IMG/VR virus record: IMGVR_UViG_3300008339_000456
Coordinates: 1-24,489 of that record
Origin: a virus
Reading direction: 5' to 3' (one strand)
DNA length: 24,489 bases
The notes beneath the pieces were generated by a model. It did no database searches. It had not been told where the DNA came from and saw nothing but the letters and a program-made list of their open reading frames with translations. Shown in pieces: positions 4,758 through 20,428 of the stretch (its first letter is position 1; every line of letters starts with the position of its first letter). A program made the position numbers and the translations under genes.

Positions 4758-5114
4758 TTATGTCGCAGTCGTCACGTTGGTCCAACCGGTGGTGCTGTTG
4801 GTGTTTACATAAAGTCGAGTGGATGTTGAACTGCCATCAGTTCGAAGATAGAGCGAACCTTGTGCCGCAGAAAGCGTCGGCACGCCAGAGCCAAAAAACA
4901 CCCCCAAATTTGTCACCGAGGACATCAAGTATCCTGCGCCTGCTGTTCCACCGGCAGGCACTGCGGTCGCTGATTGGCAAACAACGCTGCCTGTCACTGT
5001 TGGGGGCTGCGCTAAGTCGCCGCCAACAATAGTCGAGTCCACTATCTTTGCGGAAGTGATTGTGCTGTCTTGCACCATGTCGATGCCTGTTGTCCCGTCG
5101 ATTACTACTGTCAT
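4758..5114 (-). CDS. Short tail fibre-like protein
   Basis: 118 residues from ATG 5114, which overlaps the upstream stop as ATGA; the ORF reaching 5126 is not used. The N-terminus MTVVIDGTTGIDMVQDSTIT resembles fibre repeat starts. The C-terminal part (SAAQGSLYLRTDGSSTSTRL, ending TTGWTNVTTAT) is a frequent small beta module of phage fibres and collagen-like tail proteins. No catalytic residues are visible. It is one of four consecutive fibre-type genes, probably products of module splitting. Confidence 0.77.
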   Translation of the reverse strand: MTVVIDGTTGIDMVQDSTITSAKIVDSTIVGGDLAQPPTVTGSVVCQSATAVPAGGTAGAGYLMSSVTNLGVFFGSGVPTLSAAQGSLYLRTDGSSTSTRLYVNTNSTTGWTNVTTAT

Positions 5115-5995
5115 GAGATTCCCCAAGTTGAGCCGCTAGGTATGGTCACGCTCACACCAGAAGCAATACTGATTCGACCCTTTGACATAGCATTCTTGAT
5201 TTTCCCACAAGTATGAATGCCAGATTGTGTACCGCTGGTGTTTATCGCAGCGCCCCCGTCAGTCAGTGAAATCTGAAACGACGATGTGCTCAGTCCTGTC
5301 GAAAGCACGTAATACTCACCGTTCACTGTAATTCCGGTAGGTAGCGCACCAGTTGTTCTAAAGCGCACCCGCTGACCTGCAACATAGTTGTTCGTCTGAG
5401 TTATTACAGCAGGGCTAACAATCGCAATGGTGCAGGTCTTGAGTGCATCTTGTCCGATTGTCCAATTTTGTGTTACGTGGGTGTCATTCTCAAAGAACAC
5501 CAAGTCTTGCGCGTCACCAGCACCACCACCCGTAGCACCAGCACCAGCAGACCCGATACCACCCATTGCCTGAAAGCGAGTGCCGTCATAGGTTATTTGA
5601 ACCACTGTTCCCGCGACCAGGTCACCCCCAGCAAGTGCTGTAGCACCCTCTTTGGTGATGCTTTTCGCGCCCTGACCGTCTATATTGATTGTGACTGCAC
5701 CAGTGTTGGTATTAGCCACCAAAAAGCGAAACGTCTGCCATGCCATATAGCCGGTCAACGCAGGTGTTGCGTCGGCGGTGATTGTGTCCGTACCGGCTAT
5801 ATTCGTGAGTGTGATGTACGTAGCATTTTGCTGTGCGACTCTGGTTACGCCATCTGCGGTCTTTAGATTCAGTGCGTCAGCTGCTGCTACTGCGTCGAAG
5901 TCAGCGCCAATCTCTGTACCTCGGATAACCTTACTCGGGTTTCCACTTAGCAGCGCATCTTTTGCCGCATAGTCTGTAAGTTTTGTGTAAGACAT
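5111..5995 (-). CDS. Tail fibre protein, virion-proximal part
   Basis: 294 residues. The N-terminus MSYTKLTDYAAKDALLSGNP, followed by VIRGTEIGADFDAVAAA, is a conserved opening of phage fibre proteins that attach to the tail. Residues ~55-150 form a beta module (TLTNIAGTDTITADATPALT), and then a Gly/Ala linker follows (SAGAGATGGGAGDA). Next come a segment with RFRTTGALPTGITVNGEYYV and a C-terminal SKGRISIASGVSVTIPSGST. The protein follows the propeller-like tail gene by a TAATG junction, as expected for the first fibre component fixed to the tail. Fibre identity is fairly strong; receptor is unknown. Confidence 0.82.
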   Translation of the reverse strand: MSYTKLTDYAAKDALLSGNPSKVIRGTEIGADFDAVAAADALNLKTADGVTRVAQQNATYITLTNIAGTDTITADATPALTGYMAWQTFRFLVANTNTGAVTINIDGQGAKSITKEGATALAGGDLVAGTVVQITYDGTRFQAMGGIGSAGAGATGGGAGDAQDLVFFENDTHVTQNWTIGQDALKTCTIAIVSPAVITQTNNYVAGQRVRFRTTGALPTGITVNGEYYVLSTGLSTSSFQISLTDGGAAINTSGTQSGIHTCGKIKNAMSKGRISIASGVSVTIPSGSTWGIS

Positions 5996-11712: not shown

Positions 11713-12726
11713 TTAATCGCCCCCCGTTCCGCTACCGAAGAAATGACTATCCATTCCCGGCGTACCGTAGGAAGGTTGCTGCTGCACTGGTCGTTGATAC
11801 TGACCGTAGGCACTGGCGGCACCTTGGAGCATTCCACCCCAATCCATTGGCTTGACATTAGACATTATCGCACCCGCCCTTGCCATTCCTGTAGACATGG
11901 CAGTGGACGGGTTGTACGCTGTCTGTGACGATTTGCCCATGCTCATACCTGCATCAAATGAACTGCGGCCCATTTCCTCAAGTGTTCCCGCACCACCCAT
12001 TGCGGTAGCGTAAGGAGAATATGCTGCGTTCTGAACGCCGTACATGCCCGTTAGCATCTGACCACCAGAACCGACTAGACCTGACCCAAAATTGGCAAAC
12101 TCCATGCCTCCTTTTACAGCCTGCGAAGCTAGATCGCGGTCTTGTTGTGCAATGGAGTTGTAGTACGCCGCCATTTCAGGGTTTGCGGCAAGCATTCCAG
12201 CGTCACCACCAACAGCTAGACCAACACGGCCCGTAGCGTTGAGGTTTTCACGCACTTTGGCGTATTCCCGCGCTCTCGGTGCAGACAATGCGAGTTGCAT
12301 GTCCTCCATGTACTTTTGCGCTTGCTCGCGTGGGTCGGTAGCCAAATACCTGTTGCCAAGGCTCATCATGCCCTGTGCAGCTTGGCCCATTGGTGCAGTA
12401 GCCGAACGTGCTTGCTCAAACTGGTCAAGCAACCCCGGAGCCATACCCATGAGTCGGGATTGTTGTGCGAGTAGTTCGGGACTGAGAGTGTATCCGCCAC
12501 CCTTCAACCGACCGTCACCGTCAAATTGAAAACTGGATGTGCCGAAGCGATTGGTCGTACCTACAGGGCGAAATCTGGCTTCGCGTCGAGCTTCTGCGTC
12601 AGAAGCTGCCTGCATTTCAGCAGCCGCCATCTGTGCGTCTGCTGCTCTTGATGCTGCCTGCCGCTGGGCATTTGCGGAGATCATGCCGCCCGCAAGGTTT
12701 GCTACTATTGGTACTGCTGCTGGCAT
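11713..12726 (-). CDS. Ala/Met/Gly-rich ejection-type protein
   Basis: 337 residues from ATG 12726 with AAGGA upstream (minus strand, about nine bases before the start). The N-terminus MPAAVPIVANLAGGMISANA is hydrophobic and could act as a membrane-active segment. A helical Ala-rich region follows (AADAQMAAAEMQAASDAEAR), then FRPVGTTNRFGTSSFQFDGD. The C-terminal half is rich in Gly, Met, Ser and Tyr and ends MDSHFFGSGTGGD. Such proteins accompany the other internal virion proteins in short-tailed phages. Its start lies inside the GNAT-like gene's end (22-base overlap). Function is inferred from neighbours. Confidence 0.72.
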   Translation of the reverse strand: MPAAVPIVANLAGGMISANAQRQAASRAADAQMAAAEMQAASDAEARREARFRPVGTTNRFGTSSFQFDGDGRLKGGGYTLSPELLAQQSRLMGMAPGLLDQFEQARSATAPMGQAAQGMMSLGNRYLATDPREQAQKYMEDMQLALSAPRAREYAKVRENLNATGRVGLAVGGDAGMLAANPEMAAYYNSIAQQDRDLASQAVKGGMEFANFGSGLVGSGGQMLTGMYGVQNAAYSPYATAMGGAGTLEEMGRSSFDAGMSMGKSSQTAYNPSTAMSTGMARAGAIMSNVKPMDWGGMLQGAASAYGQYQRPVQQQPSYGTPGMDSHFFGSGTGGD

Positions 12727-13181
12727 AAAAACTCGTCCTTTGTCACACCTAATGAAAACTGGTCTATCAATTCGCCAGATACACGAATGCTCTTGCGGTT
12801 AATACCCTCGTCCTTCATTCCGGCTCTGCGAGCATACGCTAGAGCAAGCGGGTTGTTGACAGGAACATGAGTCACAACTTTCTCAAATTCTGTGTTTGAG
12901 AACAGCCACAATAATACCTCATTTGCGGCAATTTTTGCCAATTTTCCACGCGCTTCCGGCATTAAACACGTATGTATCTCGCAAGTTGTCCTGCTGTGGG
13001 GGTGAACATAATACACCCCCAAGTGCTTACCGTCTTGCGAATACTCTAACCAATACACAACCTCATCGACACATGGAGTGTACGTCTGAGACTCGGAATA
13101 ATCATCCGATGACCAAGGCCAATTGTGTGGGTGCGTTACTGCATCCCTGATAACATCTTTGTCAAAGATTCTTGTTATCAC
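12705..13181 (-). CDS. GNAT-fold acetyltransferase-like protein
   Basis: 158 residues from a GTG at 13181 that overlaps the upstream stop (GTGA); no ATG near the start suits it. The central part shows a GNAT outline. A beta strand (GVYYVHPHSRTTCEIHTCLM) is followed by the motif-A-like loop and helix ARGKLAKIAANEVLLWLF (R/Q-x-x-G/A position), then motif B VNNPLALAYARRAGMKDEG with the usual N-x-x-A-x-x-x-Y-x-x-x-G-M pattern. Phage GNAT-like proteins of this size occur among virion genes (DUF2824-type). Substrate is unknown. Placed between virion proteins, it may modify a virion or host protein; that is inference. Confidence 0.78.
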   Translation of the reverse strand: MITRIFDKDVIRDAVTHPHNWPWSSDDYSESQTYTPCVDEVVYWLEYSQDGKHLGVYYVHPHSRTTCEIHTCLMPEARGKLAKIAANEVLLWLFSNTEFEKVVTHVPVNNPLALAYARRAGMKDEGINRKSIRVSGELIDQFSLGVTKDEFLCQQQYQ

Positions 13182-14153: not shown

Positions 14154-15194
14154 TTAGGCCGGTACTACGAAAGCCAATCCAGCGTAATCACGAAGTTCTT
14201 TTGTGCCGTACACAGTGTCAGAAGTAACCATAGTACCAAGGTACTCCTGCTTGTACTGAGACTGAGTGCGGATAGCTTGCTGAGTAGCCAAGGCCATTGC
14301 GTCTTTGTGGAAGATCATGCCAGCGCGATAACGGGTATCGGTAGGTGTAGAAGTGTTCCAGTCCACAGTCAGACCGAACTCATCAACATACGCAGCACCA
14401 CCAGAAGTCAAGCTCGTTGCTGAGAAGTTGACAGACTGTGTGGAGGTCACGCTATTAACGTGAATGAACGGGCAGTTGGACGAGGTGAATACTTCCACGC
14501 CGTACAGATTGCCCAACATGCCCGTCTTGATGGTGTCGCCATCACCCTTGAACGCTTGTTCGGTAAAGCGAGCAATACCGCGCAAAGTGTTGGACTCCAC
14601 AGGTGGGATAATCATGTACAACTCATTGGAAGCAATGTCGCTGTCCTCAAGTGTCTGAATCATCTTGCGAATGCCAGCATCAGTGAGGGTCGTACCGTTG
14701 CCCGGAGTCGCACCGGAGAACAAGGTAGAACCGTTACCGCCGATTACGGCTTTCTCGTACAAGTTAGTCGCACCAGCGATGGAACCACCGTTGAACCCCG
14801 CACCCAACAGATGCAAGTCACGATCAATACGACGAGCCAGTGAATAACCGGCATCTTCGGTGTAGAACTTACGCATGGATGACAACGATTGCATTTCGGC
14901 AATGTCCTCATACATTTTGGTGTACTCAAAGTGGCGATTGATGACAACCAGCACCTCAGTTGCAGTATCTGCAATTGGGTTGACTTGGGTGTTAGCCAGT
15001 TTCAGCGAGGGGTCGCCACGTCCGGGCACTGGAATGTGCAGTGTGTCACCCTTTTTACCTTTGAATGAAATGGGGGTAACAAGATTGCCAACGACCAGCT
15101 TTTGCTTGTACGTGGCAATGACTTCATCTGACCAAATCTCGGGGATGAATTTGTCGGATGTGGTGGTGGTTACGTGATTAGAACCTAAAGGCAT
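14154..15194 (-). CDS. Major capsid protein
   Basis: 346 residues. ATG 15194 has AGGAG seven bases upstream. The N-terminus has TTTSDKFIPEIWSDEVIATY, then LVVGNLVTPISFKGKKGDTL and IPVPGRGD, the typical opening of HK97-fold coat proteins of podoviruses and related groups (P-E-I-W-S near the start, hydrophobic N-arm, GDT-x-x-I-P). A long helix follows (RKFYTEDAGYSLARRIDRDL), then LYMIIPPVESNTLRGIA. The C-terminal part is AGMIFHKDAMALATQQAIRT, with the F/H-K/R-x-A/S-x-x-L/A motif of coat proteins. Its place after the scaffold gene supports the assignment. No cleavage peptide is evident. Confidence 0.9.
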   Translation of the reverse strand: MPLGSNHVTTTTSDKFIPEIWSDEVIATYKQKLVVGNLVTPISFKGKKGDTLHIPVPGRGDPSLKLANTQVNPIADTATEVLVVINRHFEYTKMYEDIAEMQSLSSMRKFYTEDAGYSLARRIDRDLHLLGAGFNGGSIAGATNLYEKAVIGGNGSTLFSGATPGNGTTLTDAGIRKMIQTLEDSDIASNELYMIIPPVESNTLRGIARFTEQAFKGDGDTIKTGMLGNLYGVEVFTSSNCPFIHVNSVTSTQSVNFSATSLTSGGAAYVDEFGLTVDWNTSTPTDTRYRAGMIFHKDAMALATQQAIRTQSQYKQEYLGTMVTSDTVYGTKELRDYAGLAFVVPA

Positions 15195-15211
15195 GATTAA
15201 CTCCTGCGAAT

Positions 15212-15964
15212 TTATTTAACTCGACCTGATCGGTATGCTTCCAATATCTCATCAGACATGGCCTCATACTTATTCGGGTCACGGATTTTCAAACGAATCA
15301 GATCAGCACGACGATACATTTTCTTAGAACTCTCACCGCTACCGCCAGTCTCTACGGCCGCTGCGCTCAAAGCCTTGTCTCGGGCGGTGTTATCCGCAAC
15401 TTCGACCTGCTTTTGACGCACTGACCGCAATTCCTTGTAGGTAGACAACAACTCGTTGGCAGCATCTACGTCATAGTTGTCGGCTTGTTGGAACAACTGT
15501 TGGCGAACCTTACTTGCTTTGACCCAAGTTTGGAACCCCACATCCTTGACGACTTCATGCGCGTCAGGATGCATTGCTGCAAGCCTTTGCTTTGACTGTT
15601 CCGCTTGTACTTGTTTCGCGTATTGCTCAACAGCGATTACTCGCGGATTATTCTCAATCTGCTGACGAATTGCCTCTTGTGGATTTTCAAAAAAATCTAT
15701 CTCTTTCGGCTCATCTGCTACTTTTTTGGGCGAACTCAATTGCGACTTGATTAGCTCGTCAGCAAGTTGTCGCACCTCATGGACTTCACGACCCTGACGA
15801 TCAATCAGCTTCTCAGCCTCTTGATGCATCCTAGCCACTTCCGCAACTGACTTACCTTTGTATTTTTCCGGCAAATCTGCTGTGTTGTCCTGCTGCGTAG
15901 CGTGTTGTTGTTCAACCGCTTCTAACTCACCTACGTCACCGTCAATGTCTTGAAATTCACTCAT
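15212..15964 (-). CDS. Scaffolding protein
   Basis: 250 residues, highly charged and helical. The motif LPEKYKGKSVAEVARMHQEA, then KLIDRQGREVHEVRQLADEL, is characteristic of podovirus scaffolding proteins (acidic N-terminus, L-P-x-K-Y-x-G-K-S, long helix). Further helices span residues ~100-200 (FQTWVKASKVRQQLFQQADN). The basic C-terminus (KMYRRADLIRLKIRDPNKYE) may bind the coat protein. ATG 15964 has GGAGGA upstream, a strong ribosome site. It lies directly before the major capsid gene, the usual order. Confidence 0.88.
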   Translation of the reverse strand: MSEFQDIDGDVGELEAVEQQHATQQDNTADLPEKYKGKSVAEVARMHQEAEKLIDRQGREVHEVRQLADELIKSQLSSPKKVADEPKEIDFFENPQEAIRQQIENNPRVIAVEQYAKQVQAEQSKQRLAAMHPDAHEVVKDVGFQTWVKASKVRQQLFQQADNYDVDAANELLSTYKELRSVRQKQVEVADNTARDKALSAAAVETGGSGESSKKMYRRADLIRLKIRDPNKYEAMSDEILEAYRSGRVK

Positions 15965-16037
15965 ATTGTCCTCCGGCCCAATGGGTTGTCGGTTAAAAAT
16001 GACTCACGCCTAGAAGGGTTAGTGAGCACGTACTACA

Positions 16038-16066
16038 TTTATACCATAAATCAAGAATAAACTGAA
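16038..16066 (-). promoter_or_regulatory. Extended -10 promoter candidate ahead of scaffold and capsid
   Basis: In the 113-base gap between the SGNH protein gene and the scaffold gene. Minus strand: TTCAGT (weak -35, 16066-16061), 17-base spacer ending TGG, then TATAAA (16043-16038), giving an extended -10 (TGGTATAAA). The gap is one of only two in the late operon long enough for a promoter, and it precedes the capsid genes, which need high expression. The -35 match is poor (3 of 6), so this is a moderate call. Confidence 0.5.
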
Positions 16067-16077
16067 ATATTGCGTAC

Positions 16078-17943
16078 TTACGCATCCATTGGCATCATGC
16101 GAACGCTGCCAATCTTGATAGTTACAGCAGTGCCTGCCGCGTCAAATTCAAGTTTGAAAGTTGCGCTGCAATTGGTTACCGCGCCAGATGGAATAACAAA
16201 CTCTGGACTTGTGAAGAAAAACACACCGTCACTGTCAATTGCGATCTGACTAGCGGTGGATGATCCGTTTATTGCCGCAGCCAGTGTTCCACTGGGGCCA
16301 CCGATTGAAGCCGAGTTGTAAAACTGGAGGTTGCGGATATTTGCCCCACTAGCCCCGGTAATCGCAACTTCTGCAACCCATCGGTAGGTTTTGCCCACAA
16401 AGGTCGGCAGTCGTGCGTTTTGTGCTGTCGAATCTGTACGGACAGTAAGTACCGAACTTGCAACGCTTGGTGTCATGATTGCGGTGATGTCAAACCCGCG
16501 ACCATCAGAGCGTGAAACACACGAAATTGCTGGAGCTACGGCCCAAGTTGCCGTTGCATCAACAATCCAGCCTGTAGGTGCTGTTCCTGTTGCTGGAGCA
16601 TTGACAGTGCCGCCAGAATTTGTCCAAGGCGCTCTATCGTGCAAATCCAAGTTAGCCGTGTTGAATCCGTAGTTGTCAGTAATGCTTGTGACTTTGTTGT
16701 CTACTTCCGGTAGCAAATTGACTAAGGCTGTATAAGCTTTGCGACCAATAGCCAATGCACCTTTGCTGTTGTAGTGTACGGTGTCAGATGCTTGATACAT
16801 TGATGCCGTACCGTAGCCGTTAGCGTCCGTAGGATTAATAATCGCGTTGTAAGCATCTACAACAACCAGGCCTTTGTAGACAGTTGCAGCCCTGCGAATC
16901 CATTGGTTAATGTTTTGCAAGTTCGCATTTCGTGCTGCGGTGTAGAAAGCGCCTGCTCCACCATAGGGGGGAATGGTCTTAATTACGCACAAGATATTGC
17001 GGCTGGTGATTTGCGTAATGATGGATTGCAGGTTTGCAATGATGGTTGCGTATGCCACATCGCCATTCACATCATTGGTGCCGCCTTGGAAATAAACAAC
17101 TTGCGGGTTTAGTGCAAAAACACCGTTGATACGTGCCAGCATTTGCGTAGTCGTCTGAGTCGCAACGCCCATATTCGCCACAAATCGCATGCGCCCACCA
17201 AGTAAGGCATTTGCCCAAACAAAATCGCCAGCTTGGAAAAGTTGATTTTGCGCAACAACAGTGCCGCCAGAGGTCGAGCCGTTTGAGCCACTATTCACGT
17301 AAGAGAATGACGTGCTACTGATGTATGTTATTGGCGTATTGAGTGCCTGATACGTGGCATCTGACATATTGACAATGTTGGCGAACTGCCCTGTACGCAT
17401 GCCGTGGGCTGAGGCAGTTGTGACCGTCACCACATTTGATGCGCGGCTGATAGTTGAAACAGAAACAGAGCTATTGTTGTATTGGGAGAGGCTATCACCA
17501 AACAATACAGTTCTCAGGCCGTTTCCCCCGGCCAAAGAGATTATTGATCCATCCGGGCCGACCATGCCGGTAATATTGCCATCACTGCTCAAACTGTACG
17601 CCGGACCTAATGAATTGACGACAGTTTTCGCATAACTTCGCAATGTGATGCGGTCTGACACACCCAACTCGCCCTCAACGGAATAGTTGACATCCCCTGT
17701 TGTTGCGGTCAACTTAAAATACAAACTCTGCAAGTCCTCATCAACTCTCAGCGCAGTCCTAACCGAGTATGAACCTTGGGTGATCCATGTTGCACTATTG
17801 CCGTTAATGTCAGAAAGGGTCGAGGTCGTATATGTTACGGTAACTGTCGCTCCACTTGAGGGAGTCAGAATTAACCAACCGTCAGCGTTGACAAATATCT
17901 CGGAGGTTGTTGTACCTGCACTAACTGTAGTCGGTGTGTTCAT
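16078..17943 (-). CDS. SGNH/GDSL-hydrolase spike-like protein
   Basis: 621 residues. An N-terminal beta domain (~1-100) precedes an SGNH hydrolase: block I GDSLS with Ser151, a block II-like Gly259 (VANMGVAT), block III GGTND with Asn290, and block V DTVH with Asp387 and His390. Residues ~161-232 (ISRASNVVTVTTASAHGMRT, then TYISSTSFSYVNSGSNGSTS) form a fibre-type module inserted between block I and the rest. The C-terminal ~440-621 is beta-rich, possibly carbohydrate-binding. ATG 17943 has GAGGG upstream. Many phage SGNH domains are O-acetyl esterases acting on host capsule or LPS, so a tailspike or decoration enzyme is likely. It lies in the head cluster, far from the fibres. Hydrolase identity is strong; substrate is inference. 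Confidence 0.88.
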   Translation of the reverse strand: MNTPTTVSAGTTTSEIFVNADGWLILTPSSGATVTVTYTTSTLSDINGNSATWITQGSYSVRTALRVDEDLQSLYFKLTATTGDVNYSVEGELGVSDRITLRSYAKTVVNSLGPAYSLSSDGNITGMVGPDGSIISLAGGNGLRTVLFGDSLSQYNNSSVSVSTISRASNVVTVTTASAHGMRTGQFANIVNMSDATYQALNTPITYISSTSFSYVNSGSNGSTSGGTVVAQNQLFQAGDFVWANALLGGRMRFVANMGVATQTTTQMLARINGVFALNPQVVYFQGGTNDVNGDVAYATIIANLQSIITQITSRNILCVIKTIPPYGGAGAFYTAARNANLQNINQWIRRAATVYKGLVVVDAYNAIINPTDANGYGTASMYQASDTVHYNSKGALAIGRKAYTALVNLLPEVDNKVTSITDNYGFNTANLDLHDRAPWTNSGGTVNAPATGTAPTGWIVDATATWAVAPAISCVSRSDGRGFDITAIMTPSVASSVLTVRTDSTAQNARLPTFVGKTYRWVAEVAITGASGANIRNLQFYNSASIGGPSGTLAAAINGSSTASQIAIDSDGVFFFTSPEFVIPSGAVTNCSATFKLEFDAAGTAVTIKIGSVRMMPMDA

Positions 17944-17948
17944 AATAG

Positions 17949-18179
17949 TTACCCTCGTCTCGCTTTAATTTTTGCGTTATCCTCTCGGATTCTAGCCCAT
18001 TTTTCAGCAGCACCGGGGAATGATCCAGTGATACCTTCAAGGCGTACCGTAGGCATACCCATGATTTGCACAGCGTCACCTTGACATTCAGGACACTCGA
18101 TGTTGTGAAAGTCAGTATCCACTAACTTCTCGGTGGTCGTACCGCAGTGTCCACAAACGAAATCTCTAAGTGTTCTCAA
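17949..18179 (-). CDS. FmdB-like zinc-ribbon protein, TTG start
   Basis: 76 residues. The frame starts at TTG 18179, which has AGGAG seven bases upstream; no ATG lies near the N-terminus. The N-terminal half carries CGHC and CPEC (residues ~9-33), a four-Cys zinc ribbon like that of FmdB-family small regulatory proteins. A basic C-terminal helix follows (AAEKWARIREDNAKIKARRG). It overlaps the upstream gene by 14 bases and is followed by the SGNH gene after five bases. Such proteins occur near portal genes in related phages; what it binds is unknown. Confidence 0.8.
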   Translation of the reverse strand: MRTLRDFVCGHCGTTTEKLVDTDFHNIECPECQGDAVQIMGMPTVRLEGITGSFPGAAEKWARIREDNAKIKARRG

Positions 18180-18402
18180 GTTTCAACTCCTCGTAAGCCA
18201 ATTCACTAGTTTCCTTCAATGACACCAGCCAGCGCATGATAGAGATTTCACCTTGGCGAAATCTCAGTGTATCGGCGGTAACGCCAGCCAGCGTGTCTGT
18301 GGTTTTGAGCATCACCTCAACGTCTGCGATGAGGTCTTTCCACCCCTGAGAACCCATCATGTCAAGGCGGTTCTCATAGTATTTTTGAAGTTCCGGTGTC
18401 AT
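18166..18402 (-). CDS. Small helical protein next to portal
   Basis: 78 residues from ATG 18402, which directly abuts the portal stop (TAAATG). The sequence is helical and charged (MTPELQKYYENRLDMMGSQG, then DLIADVEVMLKTTDTLAGV and FRQGEISIMRWLVSLKETSE). No motif is visible. Proteins of this size and type are often encoded after podovirus portal genes, sometimes called portal-associated, but their function is unclear to me. Translation probably depends on coupling with the portal gene, since no good ribosome site is seen. Confidence 0.75.
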   Translation of the reverse strand: MTPELQKYYENRLDMMGSQGWKDLIADVEVMLKTTDTLAGVTADTLRFRQGEISIMRWLVSLKETSELAYEELKLENT

Positions 18403-20388
18403 TTACATGCTCTGATTTGTTGATTTTGCTGCCATCTGCATCCGGGCAATGTTCTCATTGGAGTCAATGTCCTTCTCTTTGAGAATCAACTCAGCAATAC
18501 GCGCCCGACGCTCAAAGTCAGCACCCTCATTGTCCTCATTCAAATTGTTTGACAACGCGGAGACAATCTTCGCCTTGGCAATGTCCGGTGCAACTTGGGT
18601 TTCGACCATGATCTGCTGTGTCTCGGCTTGGGTTTTCTCAACCTTGGCCTGTTTCTCAGCCATCTCAAGCTGCATGCCCTGCTGCTGCATCTGCTGCTGT
18701 TTCGGGTCTGGTTTCGATGCTTTATCCAGTTGGGTCAGCATATCCTCGCGGTTCGGCAAAGAACTATTCTTGACCACGGCCTGCATCAGAATCGGGGTCA
18801 GTGGGCTGTTCGCACCTAAAGTCTGAATCAGGAAAGCCAGTTGTTTCTGCTCGTACTCACGCGCAATGATACCCAAAGTCGCTGTGGGGATGAACTTCAC
18901 GTCAACGGACGGGTATCGCTTCGGGTCGAATTGCATATAACGCCACGCGGCCTTATATATGAACGGAATAAGGAAATCCTCTTGAAAATTGACCAGTACC
19001 CGCTTGTACTTCTTAATCATGGTGGCAGTTGCCATGTCCATGTTACCGTCACGCGACACCTGAGACACCGCACCATTGGAGTCAATTGTGCCCGATGCCA
19101 TCGTCAGCATACGCTCAAACTCTTTGGAAGTCTGCATTGCCTGACCATCCGTAGAGCCGAACTTGAACGGCATCAGAATCTCGTTCGGATTGCCGCTGAC
19201 CATGAAGTTGTTACCCGGTTTGACCTCGTACTTCGCACCGCGAGGCAGTCGTGTAGCGTCCATTGCCATCATGGGTGCTGTGGTCAGCGCCAGCGAGTCC
19301 ATGTGGGAGCGCATGGATCCATCAATCGCAGCCTGCATGTTCATTGACTTCTCGACAGTACCACGCCCCAATAGTCGCAACGGCACGGTGTCGGCCTGAT
19401 AGGACAGAACAGGCCTGTCCTTCATCATGTAGGGGGATTCCTCTGCCTTGAGCAGCAAGTCACCGTTGGCAATAACCACTATGGCCTCCACCATGTCGGA
19501 GTAGTCCTCCAACTCGTCCTCCATCACCTTCTCGAACTCGTCGTTACCACTCAAATACTCTCTAGGTACTAACCCGTAGTAAGTGAGCACTAACACCTTG
19601 TTATCTTCAAAATTGGTGATTTCTTGAGTGACTTCCTGCGAATCGTCTTGGTACATCGAGGTCACATCAACGTCGAAATACTTACCGGAGGCAATGCCCT
19701 CGGCAATCTTGTGGATGCTGACGTACTTCTCAATGGCAACACCCATACAGTCATCAATTTCAGTCCCATTGGGGTCGAAAAGGAAGTTTTTGGGGTTGAC
19801 TGGGTTCAATTTGATCGAAATGCGCTCGCTCTCACCCACACCATAGGCTTGAGTTGTCGCATCCAACGGAACGGTCATTGGTTTGTAGTTTTTGACCTTG
19901 GAAACGATGATTTCACCGATACCAGTGCCATAAATCTCAGCCAACAGTGCAATCTGGTCGAAATTCTTGCGAATCTTGTCCTGTGCAAAGTCCTCTTTTA
20001 GCTGATTCTTCAACTTCTCAACGTCAACTCCGCCATTCTTGTCAGCCAAGTCGTCCTTGATGTCGAAATACTCACCCTGACCAAAGATCGCCTCCATAAT
20101 CTCGGCATGGCGAGTCTCTACGGCCTGTTGTGTAGCTGGAGAAATTAGCTTAGATCGCTCGGAGTTACGAATCTTGTCCTCAGACGCCCACTGACCACGG
20201 AAAATTCGCTCATACTTGAGCCAATCGTCCATGTAGTTCTGGTCACGGTACTCGCGCCAACGGTCTGTATGGTCGATGATGAACGCAGTCAGCTCCTTCT
20301 GAGCCTCAGATGGCTCGAAGTGCTTCGGCTCAGGAGGTTCATCCCCCATGTCATCCACAATCTCTCCGGTATTCTCGTAGTCGCTCAT
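18403..20388 (-). CDS. Portal protein
   Basis: 661 residues from ATG 20388; GAGG lies seven bases upstream. The adjoining ATG at 20391 is possible but only four bases from it. The N-terminal third is acidic with WREYRDQNYMDDWLKYERIF, then SKLISPATQQAVETRHAEIM, a pattern of podovirus portals. The middle has MQAAIDGSMRSHMDSLALTT and APMMAMDATRLPRGAKYEVK. The C-terminal part is Gln-rich and helical (KQQQMQQQGMQLEMAEKQAK), possibly the barrel or crown helix. It follows the large terminase gene by about 40 bases and precedes the head genes. Family role: dodecameric DNA channel at one capsid vertex. Confidence 0.9.
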   Translation of the reverse strand: MSDYENTGEIVDDMGDEPPEPKHFEPSEAQKELTAFIIDHTDRWREYRDQNYMDDWLKYERIFRGQWASEDKIRNSERSKLISPATQQAVETRHAEIMEAIFGQGEYFDIKDDLADKNGGVDVEKLKNQLKEDFAQDKIRKNFDQIALLAEIYGTGIGEIIVSKVKNYKPMTVPLDATTQAYGVGESERISIKLNPVNPKNFLFDPNGTEIDDCMGVAIEKYVSIHKIAEGIASGKYFDVDVTSMYQDDSQEVTQEITNFEDNKVLVLTYYGLVPREYLSGNDEFEKVMEDELEDYSDMVEAIVVIANGDLLLKAEESPYMMKDRPVLSYQADTVPLRLLGRGTVEKSMNMQAAIDGSMRSHMDSLALTTAPMMAMDATRLPRGAKYEVKPGNNFMVSGNPNEILMPFKFGSTDGQAMQTSKEFERMLTMASGTIDSNGAVSQVSRDGNMDMATATMIKKYKRVLVNFQEDFLIPFIYKAAWRYMQFDPKRYPSVDVKFIPTATLGIIAREYEQKQLAFLIQTLGANSPLTPILMQAVVKNSSLPNREDMLTQLDKASKPDPKQQQMQQQGMQLEMAEKQAKVEKTQAETQQIMVETQVAPDIAKAKIVSALSNNLNEDNEGADFERRARIAELILKEKDIDSNENIARMQMAAKSTNQSM

Positions 20389-20428
20389 CATCGAACCTCA
20401 CGTTAGGCTAACTTGGCGTAGTATACCG

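Follow-up and report, generated by a model that had tools for sequence, protein, structure and literature searches.

The window, that is the whole stretch of 24,489 nucleotides of viral DNA that was analysed (IMG/VR virus record IMGVR_UViG_3300008339_000456), contains at positions 16078..17943 a complete gene for an SGNH/GDSL hydrolase of 621 amino acids, identified from the ORF list and by the Pfam GDSL families. It runs on the minus strand from an ATG start at 17943 down to 16078; its parts, the neighbouring packaging and head genes and the DUF2824/GNAT-like gene described below share this strand. Upstream lie terL (21694-20429), the portal protein gene (18403..20391; Pfam SU10_portal and phrog_1216), an ORF of 78 amino acids and, immediately before the SGNH gene, an FmdB-like zinc ribbon gene (17949..18179). 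Immediately downstream are the genes for a scaffold-like protein (15212..15964; phrog_19777, head scaffolding) and the major capsid protein (MCP; 14154..15194; phrog_267). The order terL-portal-78aa-FmdB-SGNH-scaffold-MCP, obtained from the ORF list and the Pfam and phrog matches, confirmed the sequence-only reading, which had placed the gene between portal-associated genes and the scaffold, some 10 kb from the fibres; the fibre genes lie leftward at approximately that distance. The interval from 15000 to 18500 showed nothing resembling a promoter or a terminator, which is consistent with co-expression of the SGNH gene with the head genes, and the Rfam and tRNA scans of the whole window returned nothing. 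A DUF2824/GNAT-like protein is encoded at 12705-13181, and a GNAT/acetyltransferase gene is present at a comparable spot, after the stabilisation protein, in L112, L113 and L115, phages related to contig L003 by portal (see below).

The SGNH catalytic domain (residues 141-412; 16708..17523), supported by Pfam and by its fold neighbours, is split by an insert. Lipase_GDSL_2 (PF13472) matched residues 243-396 with E=1.1e-16 and 62.3 bits (curated cut-off 32.9), and Lipase_GDSL (PF00657) matched residues 146-401 with E=1.2e-7 and 32.6 bits (cut-off 23.6). The nucleophile Ser151 is in the block I motif GDS (17491..17499), recognised from the sequence and from the alignment with relatives. The other three motifs, invariant in an alignment of 18 sequences at G259, N290, D387 and H390, are NMG (N257-G259; 17167..17175) with the oxyanion Gly259, GGTND (17071..17085) with Asn290, and the block V motif DTVH (16774..16785) with Asp387 and His390. 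With both Pfam scores above their cut-offs and the block I Ser, block II Gly, block III Asn and block V Asp-x-x-His conserved, the protein belongs to the SGNH/GDSL superfamily. The sequence-only reading had picked out GDSLS with Ser151, GGTND with Asn290 and DTVH with Asp387 and His390 correctly, but had taken GGTND for block II; in the block definitions followed here block II carries the oxyanion Gly and block III the Asn (PMC9487903), so that NMG is block II and GGTND is block III.

In the full-length AF2 model of the monomer, residues 240-410 had high pLDDT and matched SGNH structures, and part of the C-terminus was reliable. Since pLDDT was below 50 over most of residues 1-237, block I included, it is conservation, and not the model, that speaks for an intact active site. 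The fold neighbours of this model retrieved with Foldseek were SGNH acylhydrolases, sialate O-acetylesterases and CBM4/22 modules, and against a viral structure library they were phage GDSL lipases and esterases plus one tail fibre protein. The C-terminal part (residues 413-621; 16081..16707) is a jelly-roll-like domain resembling CBM4/CBM22 according to Foldseek and the AF2 model, and it is common to the uninterrupted phage relatives. The acylhydrolase and sialate-O-acetylesterase neighbours and the CBM-like C-terminus favoured the earlier suggestion of a spike-type esterase acting on surface glycans.

The insert was delimited by an iterated domain profile at residues 162-229 (68 amino acids; 17257..17460; i-Evalue 6e-22). 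The spacing between the block I Ser and the block II Gly was 108 residues in the window protein and in its two close relatives from the viral contigs L003 and L004, versus a median of 39 and a maximum of 56 in the uninterrupted relatives as parsed automatically, where the few distances shorter than 37 stem from faulty parsing or from an additional GDS motif. The extra length equals one 68-residue domain. Because block I is much nearer in the phage relatives found by tblastn, these aligned only from residue ~234-257 onward. The combination of this module with an SGNH domain was found only in the window clade, some 25 other SGNH relatives being devoid of it. Hence, the proposal that a segment had been inserted behind block I, ahead of the catalytic block that follows it, in a family that usually keeps blocks I and II much closer, was borne out: the profile, the match to solved structures described next, the fold and the spacing all pointed to a separate, portable domain rather than to an ordinary SGNH lid.

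A profile built from 31 instances of the insert matched, in the PDB, the beta-barrels of the endosialidases of phi92 (4hiz; E=3e-4 over positions 3-68 of 68) and K1F (1v0e; E=0.0036), followed by E1 enzymes (E 0.2-0.3). The AF2 model of the insert alone reached a pLDDT of 87.6 and a pTM of 0.73, and the top 20 structures retrieved with it by Foldseek were all either E1 FCCH domains or endosialidase barrels (probability 0.77-0.99, rmsd 2.2-4.9 A). Since the Foldseek E-values were 0.1-0.5, as expected for 68 residues, the fold assignment rests on the agreement between the sequence profile and the structural comparison. The Pfam gathering cut-offs were not reached by the insert (E1_FCCH, 13.4 bits versus 29.5) nor by the related domain of Klebsiella phage RothD (E1_FCCH, 16.5; End_beta_barrel, 16.3 versus 35), and the insert is therefore described as related to these two families, not as a member of either. 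From these profiles and models, the insert is a mobile all-beta module related to the endosialidase-barrel/E1 FCCH type.

Additionally, in the fetched loci the barrel profile detected the module 145 times, spread over 100 ORFs, among them fibres, major tail proteins and arrays of several copies; as much of this locus set had been fetched through matches to the insert, the figure reflects the spread of the module and not its frequency. In RothD (L033:5485-6345) an unannotated protein whose gene directly precedes a capsid-like one contains the module, an arrangement repeated in related contigs (e.g., L050-L054, L058, L060, L068, and L070), and in RothD and these contigs the module is present again in a second gene. 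Single large proteins with five to seven copies were observed in L044, L061, L075, L088, and L102. A second barrel suspected in the fibre ORF at 5111-5995 of the window was discarded, as this ORF had no relevant Pfam match and was not hit by the insert profile.

The promiscuity of the module, its presence in major tail proteins and arrays, and its absence from most SGNH relatives would also suit a passive role, as a spacer or stiffener that a surface loop accommodates and that binds no glycan. Accessory Ig-like domains of phage virions are similarly promiscuous, and FCCH, the E1 counterpart of the barrel, is to our knowledge not a glycan binder; both points count in favour of a spacer. Nevertheless, the closest solved matches to the profile are endosialidase barrels, and the barrel of K1F is a binding site for polysialic acid and a hotspot of host discrimination (PMC12632334). 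Moreover, the barrels of the window, L003 and L004 are 83-87% identical, a degree of conservation similar to that of the rest of the body. A passive role is a serious possibility, although not the one that we favour, and the barrel is treated below as a putative glycan-binding module.

When the full SGNH protein was scanned against genome contigs no relative was found, and it was the scans of viral contigs that yielded L003 and L004, the protein of the latter being cut by its contig end. The three proteins share a common body, insert included, from residue ~117 (89% overall identity with L003 and 71% with L004). It starts in a shared linker (residues 117-142; 17518..17595), where the protein identity to both relatives begins and where the DNA identity to L003 starts at 17580. 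The N-termini of L003 and L004 showed no detectable relation to that of the window. The terminases of L003 and L004 are distantly related (34% identity), neither has significant similarity to the window terL (E 0.099 or worse), and the portals also differ among the three phages. At the DNA level, the window resembled L003 in the enzyme body and nowhere else (codons 122-621, positions 17580-16083 of the window; 1498 bp at 89%), and the similarity to L004 covered 939 bp at 76%. In all three the SGNH gene is located in the head/packaging cluster. These comparisons showed an enzyme body that has evidently been exchanged between phages of different lineages, on different N-termini.

The N-terminal domain of the window protein (residues 1-115; 17599..17943), a lineage-specific and presumed particle anchor, was not matched in a tblastn search against phages, nor were those of L003 and L004, and for none of the three anchors did that search bring up a homologue whose place on the virion is known. 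Relatives of these domains were instead recovered through the relatives of the neighbouring portal and terminase genes, eighty of which were fetched for each of three lineages: A (relatives of the window portal), B (relatives of the L003 portal) and C (relatives of the L004 terminase). In lineage A, the window N-terminal domain, absent from L003 and L004, recurred in the proteins of the post-portal slot of L125 and L127 (E 1e-28 to 1e-37), joined to other C-terminal enzymes. The L125 body has a weak match to a polysaccharide deacetylase (NodB-like; Pfam E=0.0065) with SIDDG and HGYNNH motifs, and that of L127 is an SGNH enzyme different from the one in the window. In the latter (L127:10035-11573), a segment of ~190 amino acids, beta-rich by eye, lies between GDST and the remaining catalytic domain, and insertion after block I may be recurrent.

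The slot proteins of lineage B opened, in 8 of the 8 filled slots, with the same N-terminus of ~25 amino acids, of the MAGSADITGRQNYVMGIGHPK type. Behind it were four SGNH bodies including that of L003, one protein of 508 amino acids, and, in two cases, a shortened protein with a further gene behind it. The four further SGNH genes besides that of L003 represent three distinct bodies, one of which is common to L205 and L206; in these two (L205:12137-13810 and L206:7101-8774), located directly before the scaffold, the SGNH domain is accompanied by a K1 capsule-lyase C-terminal domain of the tailspike type (Pfam E=2e-20). The two-gene slots (L203:12421-14456 and L259:13121-15132) encode a protein of ~255 amino acids with the lineage B N-terminus and then one of ~420 amino acids, possibly an anchor and a separate enzyme. 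In lineage C, the L004 N-terminus was also found on other bodies, one of them GH5-like (E=6e-14) and another, in L290, with a match (E=7e-17) to a solved structure that the PDB lists as a carbohydrate-binding protein. L290 is not claimed as a glycosidase, given that its PDB match is only to that carbohydrate-binding protein, nor is L213 claimed as a beta-helix lyase, as it had no usable solved match. A lineage-shared N-terminal anchor followed by an exchangeable C-terminal body, the mark of tailspikes and receptor-binding proteins, was found here, and this constant front end with exchangeable enzymes is a tailspike-style organisation.

The order terL-portal-scaffold-MCP is kept in lineage A, and a gene of at least 200 amino acids was present at the portal-scaffold junction in 16 of 47 genomes; the junctions without such a gene measured 0.6-1.4 kb and contained only small ORFs. 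In lineage B, a gene was found just before the scaffold in 8/41 genomes, the other 33 being empty at this point. At the portal-scaffold junction there is thus a slot for cargo that may be filled or empty. Furthermore, in lineage A a large gene directly followed the MCP in all 12 genomes with an empty slot and enough sequence, versus two of nine with a filled slot (Fisher p=3e-4, with kinship among the genomes ignored). Five of the post-MCP genes were scanned and gave matches to tail-fibre or tail-protein families, some with a chaperone-like or collagen-like tail. The filled slot and the post-MCP tail-fibre gene hence appear to be alternatives in lineage A (L121-L199).

These data bear on where the enzyme would be mounted. 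The N-terminal domain could bind the capsid or the portal/neck, so that the esterase would decorate the surface of the head and not the tail, as would suit a gene inside a head operon free of internal promoter- or terminator-like sites in a phage that has separate fibre genes. SGNH genes also adjoin the portal or the MCP in unrelated phages: after the portal in Gordonia phages Lambo and Ranch, after the MCP in Arthrobacter phage Casserole and in L027, between portal and protease in L026, and two genes after the MCP in L013. However, several relatives are in tail or lysis regions (Hum25, after the holin; L015, near an amidase; L016 and L019), and because clear tail-fibre genes of lineage A sit within the head cluster, right after the MCP, the position of the gene cannot argue for attachment to the head. 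A head-mounted enzyme is considered unlikely. The sequence-only reading had called the location unexpected for a spike enzyme, yet in this lineage fibres and adhesins are regularly encoded in the head cluster. Of the two options offered there, the capsid- or portal-linked esterase gains nothing from the position, whereas the tailspike moved from the tail block came close; the gene is better described as a swappable module of the tailspike type, in a slot that typically holds adhesins in its lineage. Two tandem GDSL enzymes were observed directly after the portal or the MCP in Lambo (L005:3410-6464) and Casserole (L008:5779-8571).

Taken together, we consider it probable that the gene encodes a virion-borne, modular carbohydrate esterase of the tailspike or fibre type, with a body that can be swapped between phage lineages. 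The lineage-specific N-terminal domain would anchor the protein to the particle, and the SGNH domain would remove ester groups, most likely O-acetyl, from the surface polysaccharide of the host. Catalysis would proceed through Ser151-His390-Asp387, with an oxyanion hole formed by Ser151, Gly259 and Asn290. The C-terminal jelly roll and the barrel placed just after the catalytic-Ser motif may keep the polymer close to the catalytic residues, and the body from residue ~117 is a module passed between lineages and grafted onto the presumed anchor of each phage. Esterase activity is known for the SGNH tail fibres of Klebsiella prophages (PMC13123978), and purified virions of Vibrio phage Peru-2 contain a GDSL esterase in abundance, its place on the particle not being settled in that study (PMC13320782).

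A broader version, in which the portal-scaffold junction of several podovirus-like lineages would be a display locus for swappable esterase, deacetylase and glycosidase spikes mounted on the head or neck, is distinctly unlikely. Lastly, a late enzyme outside the virion, located by chance among the head genes and devoted to lysis, to masking of the receptor against superinfection or to deacetylation of lipids or peptidoglycan, could be imagined from the SGNH relatives in lysis regions (Hum25, L015), but is very improbable given the reuse of the N-terminal domain with spike-type enzyme bodies, the CBM-like C-terminus and the virion-associated esterase of Peru-2.

The proposed tailspike-type esterase was compared with known systems. 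Its top fold neighbours, Gordonia phage Lambo gp5, the GDSL lipases of Pseudomonas phage nickie and gp21 of Rhodococcus phage ReqiPine5, can be aligned to the window protein and likewise combine an SGNH core with a C-terminal jelly roll, and in Lambo, Ranch and Casserole the gene is beside the portal or the MCP as in the window; nevertheless, this group has no barrel between blocks I and II and its N-termini differ. In gp63.1 of Escherichia coli phage G7C and in the Klebsiella prophage fibres (PMC13123978), an SGNH domain with esterase or deacetylase activity is part of a virion adhesin. These, likened to the window protein by domain class, are described tail fibres or tailspikes, whereas the window gene is in a head cluster and its product a putative virion protein. 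The endosialidases of K1F (endoNF) and phi92 (1v0e and 4hiz; End_beta_barrel) carry the same type of barrel in a polysaccharide-processing enzyme, but their catalytic domain is a sialidase beta-propeller and that of the window is SGNH, so no sialidase activity is implied. In the haemagglutinin-esterases and HEF of animal viruses the SGNH domain is also non-contiguous, with a binding domain in a surface loop (PMC3779223, PMC9487903), although insert and virus are unrelated to those studied here and the likeness is at the level of the SGNH superfamily. The FCCH domain of E1 ubiquitin-activating enzymes (PF16190) shares the small barrel fold of the insert through a weak profile match, a relation at the fold level only that implies no catalytic Cys function. 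The limited literature searched contained no description of such a combination, in which block I of an SGNH esterase is followed by a barrel of the endosialidase type and the gene occupies a slot for exchangeable adhesins.

The recognition of SGNH deacetylases as host-range enzymes of phages is growing, and in the present case the SGNH domain is made non-contiguous by a barrel of the kind with which phage endosialidases bind polymer. One body on three unrelated anchors, with each anchor also found on other enzymes, constitutes a natural test set for modularity. The optional slot beside the portal is a place in which to seek unrecognised adhesins in uncultured phages, and it warns against inferring a head protein from a gene's place in the head cluster.
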